Source: a bacterium (GTDB lineage: Bacteria; Bacillota; Clostridia; Christensenellales; Aristaeellaceae). Taken from it: DNA of 46,024 nt. Location of the stretch: NCBI GenBank assembly GCA_029009515.1, contig JAQXJZ010000091.1, positions 1-46,024 of the forward strand. Direction: 5' to 3'. Under the pieces are notes generated by a model. It was not told where the DNA came from. It made no database searches and saw nothing but the letters and a program-made list of their open reading frames with translations. Shown piece by piece: positions 11,664-21,505 of this stretch (within the stretch, counting starts at the first letter, position 1; every line of letters starts with the position of its first letter). The translations under genes and the position numbers were made by a program.

Positions 11664-11699
11664 GTTTCTGCACCCAAAGCAAGGGCGCTTTATGCAGTC

Positions 11700-11866
11700 T
11701 GACAGCTCTCCGTCCGCAATGCAGACGACAGTCCGACGGATGTTCTCCGGCGGCCCGGGCATCAGACAGGACAGGCATCCCTCTGACCCCTCGGCGGCCA
11801 GCCCTTTCGCCCATCCACATGCCTGTTTCGGATTGGGGTACTCTTGCTTTCCGCGCCTCTATCACG
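11700..11866 (-). ncRNA. Lysine riboswitch (L box)
   Basis: Read on the minus strand, the conserved blocks appear in order: GTGATAGAGGCGCGG, AAGAGTA, GGGCGAAAGGG with CCGCCGAGG, GGGCCGCCGGAG, GGACTGTC and GGAGAGCTGTCA. The basal stem P1 forms from TGATAG with CTGTCA. These match the lysC L-box core of Bacillus block by block. It lies in the 5' leader of the NhaC-type transporter and should shut it off when lysine is plentiful. The remainder of the 322-nt gap is the promoter and the attenuator. Confidence 0.92.
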
Positions 11867-11888
11867 TATTCATTCAGTTTTCGGTTCT

Positions 11889-18708: not shown

Positions 18709-18737
18709 TTGACATCCTCTGCCCTGTGCGGTATACT
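18709..18737 (+). promoter_or_regulatory. Promoter of the leader peptide / ABC exporter operon
   Basis: TTGACA (18709-18714) and TATACT (18732-18737) with a 17-nt spacer, near consensus. The start of transcription should be close to 18744, about 30 nt before the leader ORF. Confidence 0.87.
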
Positions 18738-18772
18738 GAACCCAATACAGGACAGAAAGGAGGATGAAACCC

Positions 18773-18868
18773 ATGACGGCTCAGCTGCGTTTTTGCGTTT
18801 TCGTGGGTCTTCAAATTTCTGTTTCTGCCTCCAAGGGGACAGGTCTGCCCATTTGGAGGAACGCATAA
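18773..18868 (+). CDS. 31-residue leader peptide of an attenuator
   Basis: ATG 18773 follows AAAGGAGGATGAAACCC, a strong ribosome-binding site, and the frame ends with TAA at 18866-18868. The peptide begins MTAQLRFCVFVGLQ and ends GTGLPIWRNA. It is not part of any larger gene. Its own coding sequence holds a stem CCTCCAA/TTGGAGG (18828-18834 with 18853-18859), and the stop codon abuts an antiterminator/terminator pair. A ribosome that finishes at the stop would cover the 5' arm of the antiterminator and allow termination; a ribosome stalled earlier would leave it free. This is the classic design of antibiotic-responsive leader attenuators upstream of efflux genes. The inducer is unknown. Confidence 0.75.
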   Translation: MTAQLRFCVFVGLQISVSASKGTGLPIWRNA

Positions 18869-18928
18869 GGCTTTTCTGGTCAGAAATCAAGCCGTTCCGC
18901 GGGCAGACGCCTGCAGGACGGCTTTTTT
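18869..18928 (+). promoter_or_regulatory. Antiterminator / intrinsic terminator switch
   Basis: The antiterminator is GGCTTTTCT (18869-18877) pairing with AGAA and AAGCC (18882-18893). The terminator is AAGCCGTTCC (18889-18898) with GGACGGCTT (18916-18924), an inner GCGGGC/GCCTGC stem and a T6 run (18923-18928). AAGCC is shared, so the two folds exclude each other. The switch lies between the leader stop codon and the first permease gene. Confidence 0.8.
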
Positions 18929-18965: not shown

Positions 18966-19745
18966 ATGATTGCTTTCATCAAACCCTACTGGTCGGAGAT
19001 GCGCATGAGCGCAAGGCTGTCGCAGTCCTTCGGCATGGCGTCGCTGGTGGGCAGCTATGTGCTGCGCGCGCTTCGCGTGGGATTTCTGCTGCTGATGTGG
19101 CGGTCGCTGTTTCAAAACGGCGCGCCCATGGACATGACCCTTCCGCAAACCCTCCAATACACCCTGTGCTCGGCGGCGCTCGCGCCGCTGCTGGATTTGC
19201 GCACGCCTGCGGGCGGCTGGCTGCACGACGGTGCGGTGGCCAGCCGCACGCTTCGGCCCATGGGCATTCTGGGGCAGCTGGCGGCGGATGCGCTGGGCGG
19301 CGCGGCGGTGCCCATCATGGTGTTTGCGCCGCTTTGCCTGCTGCTGGGCTGGTGGATGGATGTGCCGCTTGCGCCTGCAAGCGCGTGGTTTCTGCCGTCG
19401 CTGCTTCTGTGCATGGCGCAGGGGTTCATCATCGATATGGCGTTTGCGTGCATCATCATCCGCGTGGGGAATTTAAGCTGGCAGGTGGACCTTCTGCGCA
19501 GCTCGCTCACCACGCTGCTGACCGGCGGGCTCATTCCCTTTGCGGCACTGCCGTGGGGACTGGGACGCTGGCTGGCGCTTTCGCCGCTGGGTACGCTGGC
19601 TGGCGCGCCGCTGAGCCTGTACGCCGGGCTGAGCGCGCCCATGCAGGTGATTCCGGTGCAGATTTTCTGGAACATCGTTTTGTGGCCGCTCATCCTGTGG
19701 TGGTTCGGCCGCTCCATGGAAAGGCTGGTGAGCTTCGGTGGGTAA
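18966..19745 (+). CDS. ABC-2 type exporter permease, subunit 1
   Basis: 259 residues from ATG 18966 (AAGAGG about 12 nt upstream); ATG 18942 is an alternative without a ribosome-binding site. Six hydrophobic segments are visible. The topology and the WSEMRMSARLSQSFGMASLV start resemble the PF06182 type of ABC-2 permease, which works as a heterodimer with a second related permease and one ATPase, as in viologen or lipid-like compound exporters. The second permease gene overlaps its end by 8 nt. The substrate is unknown; the leader attenuator upstream suggests a ribosome-targeting compound or another translation-disturbing stress. Confidence 0.8.
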   Translation: MIAFIKPYWSEMRMSARLSQSFGMASLVGSYVLRALRVGFLLLMWRSLFQNGAPMDMTLPQTLQYTLCSAALAPLLDLRTPAGGWLHDGAVASRTLRPMGILGQLAADALGGAAVPIMVFAPLCLLLGWWMDVPLAPASAWFLPSLLLCMAQGFIIDMAFACIIIRVGNLSWQVDLLRSSLTTLLTGGLIPFAALPWGLGRWLALSPLGTLAGAPLSLYAGLSAPMQVIPVQIFWNIVLWPLILWWFGRSMERLVSFGG

Positions 19746-20571
19746 GCGGCTTTTGAAGATGTGGGCGCTGTACGCCCGGCTGGACTGGTACTACACCACG
19801 CAGGATGTGTTCACCGCCTCGGTCACCATCTTCAGCGAGGTTCTGTGGGGCATGGCCACGCTGTCCGGCACGGCGCTTCTGGCAGTGCGGTTTGGCGGCG
19901 TGGGCGCGCTGAGCGCACAGGAGGTGCTGGTGATGCTCTCCTTCCACCTGTTTGCCCGCGGCTGGGAAGTGATGCTGTTTGCGGGCAACAACGTCAGCTG
20001 CATCAGCCGCCGCATCGGCCGCGCGCAGGTGGATCACATGCTCATCCAGCCCATCCCGCTGTGGATGCAGCTGCTCACCGAGGGCTTTATGCCGGTATCG
20101 GGCTGCCAGCAGCTGCTGTGCGGGCTGATCGCGCTGTGCATCTTTGTGCCAAAGGCGGGCATAGCGGTGAGCGTGGGATGGATTCTGCTGCTTGTTTTGC
20201 TCATCCTGTGCCGTCTGGCCATCTATCTGTCCATCTCCTATGCGGCCGGTTCCGCCGCGTTTTACAACCCCGTCGGCTGCGAGGAACTGAGCTGCATTGT
20301 CATGGATCTGTGCGATACCGTGTCCGATTATCCGCTCAGCGGCATGCCGCGGCTGCTTGTGGGCGCGCTGTGCACGGCGGTTCCGCTGGGCGCGTTCACC
20401 TATCTGCCGGGGCTTTTGCTCATTGGCCGTCTGGACGCCGTGTGGGCCGCATGGCCGGTGCTGCTGGCCGTTTTGCTGGTGACACTGGCGCAATCTTTAT
20501 TCAGGAAAGGAATGAAACATTATGTTCAAGTGGGCTGTGCAAGATATAAATCCATGGGACATCGCCGCTGA
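19738..20571 (+). CDS. ABC-2 type exporter permease, subunit 2
   Basis: 277 residues, GTG start at 19738 inside the end of the previous gene. It has about six membrane segments, with the early ALYARLDWYYTTQDVFTASV and the later YLSISYAAGSAAFYNPVG typical of PF06182-family partners. The last 17 codons overlap the start of the ATPase gene by 50 nt in another frame, which indicates tight translational coupling. It should form the membrane channel together with the upstream permease. Confidence 0.8.
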   Translation: MGKRLLKMWALYARLDWYYTTQDVFTASVTIFSEVLWGMATLSGTALLAVRFGGVGALSAQEVLVMLSFHLFARGWEVMLFAGNNVSCISRRIGRAQVDHMLIQPIPLWMQLLTEGFMPVSGCQQLLCGLIALCIFVPKAGIAVSVGWILLLVLLILCRLAIYLSISYAAGSAAFYNPVGCEELSCIVMDLCDTVSDYPLSGMPRLLVGALCTAVPLGAFTYLPGLLLIGRLDAVWAAWPVLLAVLLVTLAQSLFRKGMKHYVQVGCARYKSMGHRR

Positions 20572-21505
20572 GATGAACGGCGTAAGCAAGACCTTTGTGC
20601 AGAAGCAGCACACGGGGCTGTTTCAGCACGAAAAGCGCATCGTGCATGCGCTGGACGGCGTGAACCTGCAGATCCGCAGGGGCGAGTTTGTGGCCTATGC
20701 AGGTCCGAACGGGGCGGGCAAATCCACCACGTTCAAGCTGCTGTGCGGCCTGCTGGCGCCTGATGCCGGACAGGTGCGCGTGATGGGCATGGATCCGCAG
20801 AAGGAGCGCATCCGCCTCATGCGCCATACCGGCGTGTTCTTTGGCGGACGCACGGAGCTGTGGTGGGATCACCCCGTCATGCGCTCCTTTGAATGGAAGC
20901 GCGACGTGTGGGATATTCCCCAAAAGCGCTGGCAGGAAAACGTGGAAAAGTACGCGGATATGCTGGATCTGCACCCGTTTCTCAACACCTTCGTGCGCGA
21001 ACTGAGCCTGGGTCAGCGCATGCGCGCGGATCTGGCCATGATGCTTCTGCACGATCCGGATCTCATCCTGCTGGACGAACCCACCCTTGGGCTGGACGTG
21101 CTGGCCAAGCGCCGCATGATCGACTGCCTGCGCACGCTCAACCGCGAGCGCGCAGCCACCATCCTCGTCACCAGCCACGACATGGACGATCTCACCGCCA
21201 TGGCGCAGCGGCTGGTGCTGATCGCACAGGGGCGCATCGCCTTTGACGGCACCAGTGAGGAGCTGCTCAGGCGCACCGGCGATCAGCGCGTGCTCACCCT
21301 GCGCGCGGACGGCCAGCCGCCGGTGATCGACGGCGCGGCGTGGCAGAAAAGCGAGGACGGCCAGCATGTGTACGCTTTCTCAGGCGAACAGGCCTCGCGG
21401 GTGCTTGCCTCTGTGGGGCAGGTGAAAAATCTGCGTGATGCGGACATCACCCACGCGCCCATCGAGGAGGTCATCGCCGGGCTGTACGAGCAGTGGTCGC
21501 GGTAA
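20522..21505 (+). CDS. ABC exporter ATP-binding protein
   Basis: 327 residues. Walker A GPNGAGKST at 61-69, ABC signature LSLGQRMRADLA near 160, Walker B and the following region LILLDEPTLGLDVLAKRRM, then the switch His in TSHDMDD. A C-terminal extension of about 90 residues (VLTLRADGQPPVIDG onward) is usual for exporters of this class. ATG 20522 is preferred because GGAAAGGA lies upstream; ATG 20573 would remove a 17-residue tail. Last gene of the attenuator-controlled operon; it powers the two permeases. Confidence 0.9.
   Translation: MFKWAVQDINPWDIAAEMNGVSKTFVQKQHTGLFQHEKRIVHALDGVNLQIRRGEFVAYAGPNGAGKSTTFKLLCGLLAPDAGQVRVMGMDPQKERIRLMRHTGVFFGGRTELWWDHPVMRSFEWKRDVWDIPQKRWQENVEKYADMLDLHPFLNTFVRELSLGQRMRADLAMMLLHDPDLILLDEPTLGLDVLAKRRMIDCLRTLNRERAATILVTSHDMDDLTAMAQRLVLIAQGRIAFDGTSEELLRRTGDQRVLTLRADGQPPVIDGAAWQKSEDGQHVYAFSGEQASRVLASVGQVKNLRDADITHAPIEEVIAGLYEQWSR

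Follow-up and report, generated by a model that had tools for sequence, protein, structure and literature searches.

A probable ribosome-mediated transcription attenuator before a PF06182-type exporter operon carries a 20-nucleotide element that recurs near other resistance-type genes of Bacillota

Attenuation by a leader has already been published for an ABC multidrug exporter, BmrCD of Bacillus subtilis, and the portions of that report drawn on here describe a requirement for translation and induction by ribosome-targeting drugs (PMC4191407). The bmrB-bmrCD leader resembles the leader analyzed here, which lies in the window (the whole 46,024-nucleotide stretch of DNA under study), in having a translated leader ORF, alternative stem-loops, and a terminator in front of an ABC exporter. 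However, BmrCD is an LmrCD-like heterodimer, whereas the window has two permeases and an ATPase in a PF06182-type operon, and the terminator lies inside the coding sequence of bmrB but 3' of the stop codon in the window. The B. subtilis ABC-F gene vmlR is preceded by an upstream ORF, an anti-antiterminator, an antiterminator, and a terminator, with stalling leading to read-through, as in our model for the window. In the excerpts of that work used here, the vmlR upstream ORF is a tripeptide with arrest at initiation and is accompanied by a NusG TTNTTT pause motif (PMC9226507), whereas TTNTTT is absent from the window leader between 18744 and 18922. The mef(E)/mel and msrD systems share with the window a short leader peptide and a terminator, and excerpts of the two reports describe macrolide-dependent read-through before the Mef and ABC-F genes there; the peptides given are MTASMRLR and MYLIFM, whereas the window peptide has no RLR (PMC4335068, PMC10314930). 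Furthermore, a survey of terminators, consulted as an excerpt, predicted 205 attenuated ABC-transporter candidates and mobile attenuators beside transposases (PMC2965389). No leader-attenuated PF06182 exporter appeared among the matches listed in our searches of the literature, made mostly without subscription papers. The statement of the first-pass annotation that such leaders are undescribed for PF06182-type exporters is retained within that scope and qualified by the bmrCD case. The class of mechanism is thus known from bmrCD, vmlR, and mefE; the leader family, the element described below, and the link to PF06182 look new.

The features of the leader and of the exporter genes behind it are as follows.

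18709-18737, + strand: sigma-70-type promoter, TTGACA, 17-nt spacer, TATACT (-35 at 18709-18714, -10 at 18732-18737; 11/12 consensus matches)
18756-18763, + strand: leader ribosome-binding site (RBS), AAAGGAGG
18773-18868, + strand: leader ORF of 31 codons, MTAQLRFCVFVGLQISVSASKGTGLPIWRNA, with ATG at 18773 and stop codon TAA at 18866-18868
18828-18859, + strand: in-ORF hairpin, the proposed anti-antiterminator (-16.2 kcal/mol by folding; stable in the window)
18836-18855, + strand: conserved 20-nt element, GGGACAGGTCTGCCCATTTG, consensus GGG-N9-CCC-WTTT (24.8 bits with the window excluded from the matrix)
18843-18864, + strand: predicted 5' strand of the antiterminator, the 3' part of the leader ORF (folding and own-terminator pairing)
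18869-18893, + strand: inner hairpin 3' of the stop codon, GGCTT at 18869-18873 with AAGCC at 18889-18893, nested in the larger antiterminator (folding)
18889-18928, + strand: intrinsic terminator, hairpin 18889-18924 and U-tract 18923-18928 (folding against shuffles)
18891-18908, + strand: predicted 3' strand of the antiterminator, overlapping the 5' arm and loop of the terminator (folding and pairing)
18966-19745, + strand: exporter permease 1, no Pfam match, start picked by eye against homologous operons
19738-20571, + strand: exporter permease 2, PF06182 ABC2_membrane_6 (E 1.7e-25)
20522-21505, + strand: exporter ATPase, PF00005, best NCBIfam model DrrA under its cut-off, start uncertain

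The promoter, the RBS, the 31-codon ORF, the in-ORF hairpin, and the strong T6 terminator were all found where the first-pass annotation had placed them, and an in-frame ATG at 18764 immediately adjoins the leader RBS. The terminator region folds at -31.0, whereas its shuffles average -17.5 (z -4.65; none of 200 shuffles equal), and the whole leader gives a folding z of -4.72, with none of 200 shuffles as good; the terminator was missing from the output of a simple terminator scan. The peptide start, MTAQLRF, loosely recalls Erm-type leaders, but inspection by eye finds in the peptide no R-x-R, the arrest motif of Erm and Mef leaders (MTHSMRLR, MTASMRLR), whereas another locus with the element (L178, below) has MTHSMRLRFPTLNC. 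A PolC-type DNA polymerase gene follows the exporter genes. Permease 2 had no sequence match in the PDB, and among the exporter proteins only the ATPase matched defence models, best mads_3 at 2e-25.

Thermodynamic folding of the window leader predicts an antiterminator with one bulge, in which 18843-18850 pairs with 18901-18908, G18856 with C18900, and 18858-18864 with 18891-18898. With the RNA before 18836 masked, as by a stalled ribosome, and the polymerase at 18914, the predicted probability of this structure was 0.97; once the full terminator exists, the terminator outcompetes it. The first-pass annotation had an antiterminator beginning at the stop codon and sharing the AAGCC arm with the terminator. 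That GGCTT/AAGCC hairpin exists, but in these folds it caps a larger antiterminator, the main strand of which lies inside the ORF. When the RNA was masked codon by codon, the antiterminator reached at least 0.7 at codons 4-13 and 15-19 with RNA to 18911 (15 of 19 codons), and at least 0.49 at codons 4-11 and 16-19 only with RNA to 18914 (12 of 19). Without a ribosome, its probability was 0.70, 0.41, and 0.10 with RNA to 18908, 18911, and 18914, respectively. For a ribosome at the stop codon, the outcome depends on the position of its rear edge: the antiterminator is blocked with that edge at 18848, mostly blocked at 18850, and not blocked at 18852. The earlier prediction that complete translation favours termination is upheld at the first of these edges, largely at the second, and fails at the third, and this result makes our main reading marginally weaker.

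We propose that during free translation a ribosome at the stop codon would cover much of 18843-18864, allowing the terminator to form, and that in the absence of translation the hairpin at 18828-18859 would compete for the same strand and favour termination again. A stall early in the leader would block this hairpin, and the 3' part of the ORF could then pair with 18891-18908 before the 3' arm of the terminator is made, giving read-through into the exporter genes. On this model read-through is the expected outcome of stalling and termination that of complete or absent translation, in fine balance. The stalling signal would most likely be a ribosome-targeting compound exported by the pump. The layout is kept in related genomes; by analogy with known antibiotic-sensing attenuators, this suggests that the pump is turned on when ribosomes stall. 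Sequence and comparison together establish a promoter, an RBS-led leader ORF, a terminator, and an antiterminator strand complementary to its own terminator. We therefore retain leader-dependent transcription attenuation, as first annotated, and, given the conserved layout and the own-terminator pairing described below, consider a ribosome-mediated transcription attenuator of the exporter operon to be the best reading, with a probability of roughly 0.82. If this is correct, the exporter family, for which our searches gave no known substrate, would be a candidate antibiotic pump equipped with its own sensor.

Relatives of the exporter provided the comparison. Of 60 relatives' genomes, 11 (counting that of the window) had a match to the PF06182 permease at E <= 1e-10. 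A scan of a species-genome collection with an alignment of seven permeases yielded 73 loci, or 74 with the window locus; contigs shared by both locus collections were counted once, as the species-genome-scan copies. Many of these loci have a short RBS-led ORF upstream of permease 1, and we sorted them by eye into class A (24 loci) and class B (13 loci). Class A ORFs have 31 to 47 codons (75 in L112, perhaps an over-long start choice) and GxxLP or GxxMP near the end, and class B ORFs have 52 to 67 codons with blocks like SALLPV and CAHF. The peptide blocks of the two classes are the same nucleotides, GGG-N9-CCC-WTTT, in different frames.

This 20-nt element was scored with a weight matrix of 30 copies, from which the copies of the scanned locus were removed and in which close relatives were kept. 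It exceeded the best of 140 control scans (11.9 bits) in 47 of the 70 exporter loci that remained after 4 of the 74, with too little upstream sequence, were set aside. Two further copies recognized by eye (L073 and L075, 11.4 and 10.2 bits) bring the motif loci to 49, which form 42 clusters at 80% identity over 140 nt; the other 21 of the 70 homologous exporters have no element. At 42 of the 49 loci the element lies within a short RBS-led ORF (12 to 75 codons, with 5 nt or more matching the RBS), compared with 13 of 475 control positions chosen at random on the opposite strand. By frame, the 43 element-spanning ORFs divide into 24, 16, and 3. Since two main reading frames pass through the element, its conservation is at the level of nucleic acid and not mainly of peptide, and a GxxLPF peptide-arrest motif, at one point taken as the main conserved feature, was dropped since the same nucleotides occur in the second frame. 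Conservation across frames points to a function of the element as nucleic acid. From its position and its GGG...CCC-TTTT form, we guess that it probably acts as a pausing or folding signal during transcription, holding the polymerase in register with the ribosome.

The peptide itself is not conserved. A search with a 34-amino-acid form of the leader in 200 relatives' genomes gave matches at E up to 1 in 34 genomes, the window's own included, and no significant match beyond the window's own (best other E 0.055); searches of plasmids returned six records, the best at E 5, and searches of phages returned none. A comparison of seven related leaders gave 110, 108, and 208 differences at the first, second, and third codon position, so that the third varies most, as expected for translated sequence; in a set of four leaders they numbered 49, 43, and 62. 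Silent and amino-acid-changing codon differences numbered 149 and 173 in the seven leaders and 26 and 75 in the four. Amino-acid changes exceed silent ones in both sets, indicating that the peptides change freely.

These data bear on the alternative of a structured RNA, either a riboswitch or a protein-binding leader, in which the element would be the sensor and the ORF incidental or only modulating. Such an RNA would account for the conservation of the element as nucleic acid across frames, and for copies with no obvious leader ORF, one of them preceding rpoB (L160) and others located where transposase genes end. However, an RBS-led ORF spans the element at most exporter loci, third codon positions vary most in the seven related leaders, and the window leader matches no Rfam family, and we regard a structured-RNA sensor as unlikely.

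A terminator of -12 kcal/mol or better was found 3' of the element in 47 of 48 motif loci. Exporters that lack the element had one in 5 of 21 cases and coding controls in 20 of 69, the searched stretches being unequal in length; a stricter scan gave 38 of 48, 2 of 21, and 8 of 69, respectively. We then compared how the leader pairs with its own and with foreign terminators. For class A, 14 of the 24 loci were used, 5 that depart from the element pattern and 5 close relatives having been removed, and the terminator sequences were supplied manually. The stretch of the ORF between mid-element and the stop codon paired with its own terminator at a mean of -24.9 and with foreign terminators at -20.8 kcal/mol (0 of 20,000 permutations). 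Among the 14 terminators, a locus's own was the best partner in 4 loci, including the window, and came second to ninth elsewhere. The best 26-nt leader partner of the terminator starts within -7 to +11 nt of the element start in 12 of 15 loci. With the partner shortened to the first 62% of the terminator, pairing clearly beat shuffles in 3 of 15 loci, a weak result. In 11 of the 13 class B loci, the own terminator gave -19.3 and foreign terminators -15.1 (0 of 20,000 permutations), and CCGTATTGAATGCC, close to the end of the ORF, is the pairing partner of the conserved terminator loop CAAACGG; with fixed columns, covariation in the class B antiterminator was no greater than in shuffles. At eight loci with ABC-F-like or Mef-like genes, where terminators were picked by eye, the values were -13.2 and -10.4 (permutation 0.0006), and the own terminator came first in 4 of 8. 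The analysis thus finds a mutually exclusive antiterminator and terminator that are maintained by evolution, with the half-terminator and fixed-column versions weaker or negative.

A simpler alternative is an ordinary promoter and terminator with a chance short ORF, the operon being transcribed by weak read-through. Terminators at the threshold do occur in exporters without the element and in coding controls, as the counts above show, but the co-occurrence of element, ORF, and terminator and the preference of leaders for their own over foreign terminators make this reading very improbable.

Attenuation through a leader ORF also calls for an anti-antiterminator, and here the two classes differ. 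In class B, GCATTCAA within the ORF pairs with TTGAATGC near the ORF end. Ten cells of the alignment are changed on both sides of this helix, a count that none of 500 shuffles reached, and slid versions of the helix score worse; the helix was chosen on the same alignment used for testing, which favours it, and one of five measures, further pair types, was not extreme (43 of 500). In class A, no common local hairpin was found among 15 loci. A local GGG:CCC hairpin, considered as the common part, was rejected, with a probability above 0.5 in only 6 of the 15 loci and a mean z of -0.5. Pairing of the upstream leader with the antiterminator strand nevertheless beat foreign pairing in these 15 loci (p 0.0008), at no fixed place. 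The first-pass annotation had named a lack of conservation of ORF or stems as grounds for refutation, and the comparison did not refute the claim: the RBS-led ORF and the covarying class B helix are kept in relatives, whereas class A has no common hairpin and the peptide is not conserved. RNAalifold on the class B alignment A2 also showed columns 7-19, the RBS block GGUGGUGAGAGG, to be complementary to columns 202-213 near the ORF end (CCUCUCGCC; CCTCTCGCC), suggesting that the class B leader's own RBS can be sequestered.

In trp-type attenuation, a leader senses an amino acid or a general slow-down of translation. The same geometry would suffice for such sensing here, with no drug involved. 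However, by eye no run of codons for a single amino acid occurs in the leaders compared, and the genes behind related leaders include ABC-F-like and Mef-like ones, whose families take their names from resistance to drugs that target the ribosome; we hold amino-acid or slow-down sensing to be quite unlikely.

We searched for the element beyond the PF06182 exporter loci. Among 391 genomes of the class, 13 had its strict pattern, one of them being the genome of the window, and among 398 of the phylum, 5 had the pattern with one more T; the reversed pattern did not occur among the matches listed. Twenty matches lie outside the window, and the following tally of their contexts leaves out L148, L157, and L159. 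Genes of ABC-F-like (L154, L156) or Mef-like (L167, L170) type follow four of them, with leader regions and terminators. A repeat present behind a DDE transposase in a single genome accounts for three (L158, L161, L162), and a different repeat for two (L166, L171). Two more fall within the last codons of a gene, which is a DDE transposase gene in L168 and, in the shorter L169, matched no family. The element was also found upstream of spoIIGA (two matches) and of rpoB, murA, and a formate transporter gene (one each). In the rpoB case (L160), it lies at 1501 on the reverse complement, a few tens of bases past promoter-like sequence, with no clear leader ORF. Two matches were rejected as attenuators: in L149 the element is antisense within a gene with TRCF-type domains, and in L153 (1352-1520) the pattern is the terminator behind a molybdenum riboswitch before the formate transporter gene. 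In viral contigs the strict pattern occurred in three stretches, two of them within predicted ORFs by eye. On plasmids, a padded form of the element gave no match, in a search that the query length makes weak.

A second route to related leaders was the curated protein family RAxF-45 (NCBIfam NF041642), for which the family search gave no function; nothing on RAxF-45 or on the peptide strings was found in the literature, searched mostly without subscription papers. The model matched in 4 of 299 genomes at E <= 0.001, two matches being above its cut-off. The genes behind these matches are ABC-F-like (three, cut off by the locus ends) or Mef-like (one), all under the cut-offs of those models. All four loci carry the element at 24.1 to 24.9 bits, with second-best sites at 5.0 to 6.7. 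In L175, L176, and L177, an RBS-led ORF of 50 to 53 codons runs through the element. In L178 (1420-1527), before the Mef-like gene, the leader holds MTHSMRLRFPTLNC, which is nearly the Erm(K) leader quoted in the consulted part of PMC4335068, then the element, and then, by eye, two terminator-like hairpins; here the element lies behind a separate Erm-like leader ORF, outside the short ORF. The window peptide had no match to RAxF-45 at E up to 1 (model cut-off 27 bits). Five of 10 related leaders matched it at 12.7 to 14.9 bits, and among 40 relatives 21 matched at E up to 1 and none above the cut-off.

Resistance genes of another type were scanned with the same matrix. The region upstream of tet(M) (L172) has one element-like site at 657-676 (20.2 bits), and that upstream of tet(O) (L173) has one at 656-675 (15.3 bits), each overlapping the end of a terminator; upstream of tet(S) no site exceeded 7.1 bits.

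Collectively, these contexts incline us somewhat towards a portable element that is a shared part of drug-responsive attenuators before unrelated resistance-type genes (PF06182, ABC-F-like, Mef-like, and perhaps tet(M)) and before some transposase genes across Bacillota, with RAxF-45 as the translation of such leaders. The position of the element outside the short ORF in L178 makes this reading slightly weaker. The element may correspond to the 'Transposase-resistance' motif of Weinberg et al. 2010, whose entry in the portion of that report consulted lists several phyla, cis-regulation as 'y', and RNA as '?' (PMC2864571); the name fits the contexts found here, the two having been compared by name and table entry alone. 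If the portable-element reading is true, hidden drug-responsive attenuators in gut and environmental Bacillota could be spotted by sequence alone, and a curated protein family of unstated function would be explained as a regulatory leader. It would also prompt one to ask how a nucleotide signal shared by resistance and transposase genes acts on the polymerase or the ribosome.

Some further RNA matches were observed. Across 18 loci searched with Rfam at E up to 1, matches occurred only in the two tet leaders and in L153. RF02864, 'Enterococcus sRNA 30', matches the tet(M) leader (L172, 481-645) at 197.5 bits and the tet(O) leader (L173, 480-643) at 71.6 bits, under the cut-off, and from these matches this 'sRNA' looks like the leader of tet genes. 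Over the window, Rfam gave two matches in total, both away from the leader: a lysine riboswitch at 11695-11869 on the - strand (84.9 bits) and a Gut-1 RNA at 204-278 on the + strand (64.4 bits).
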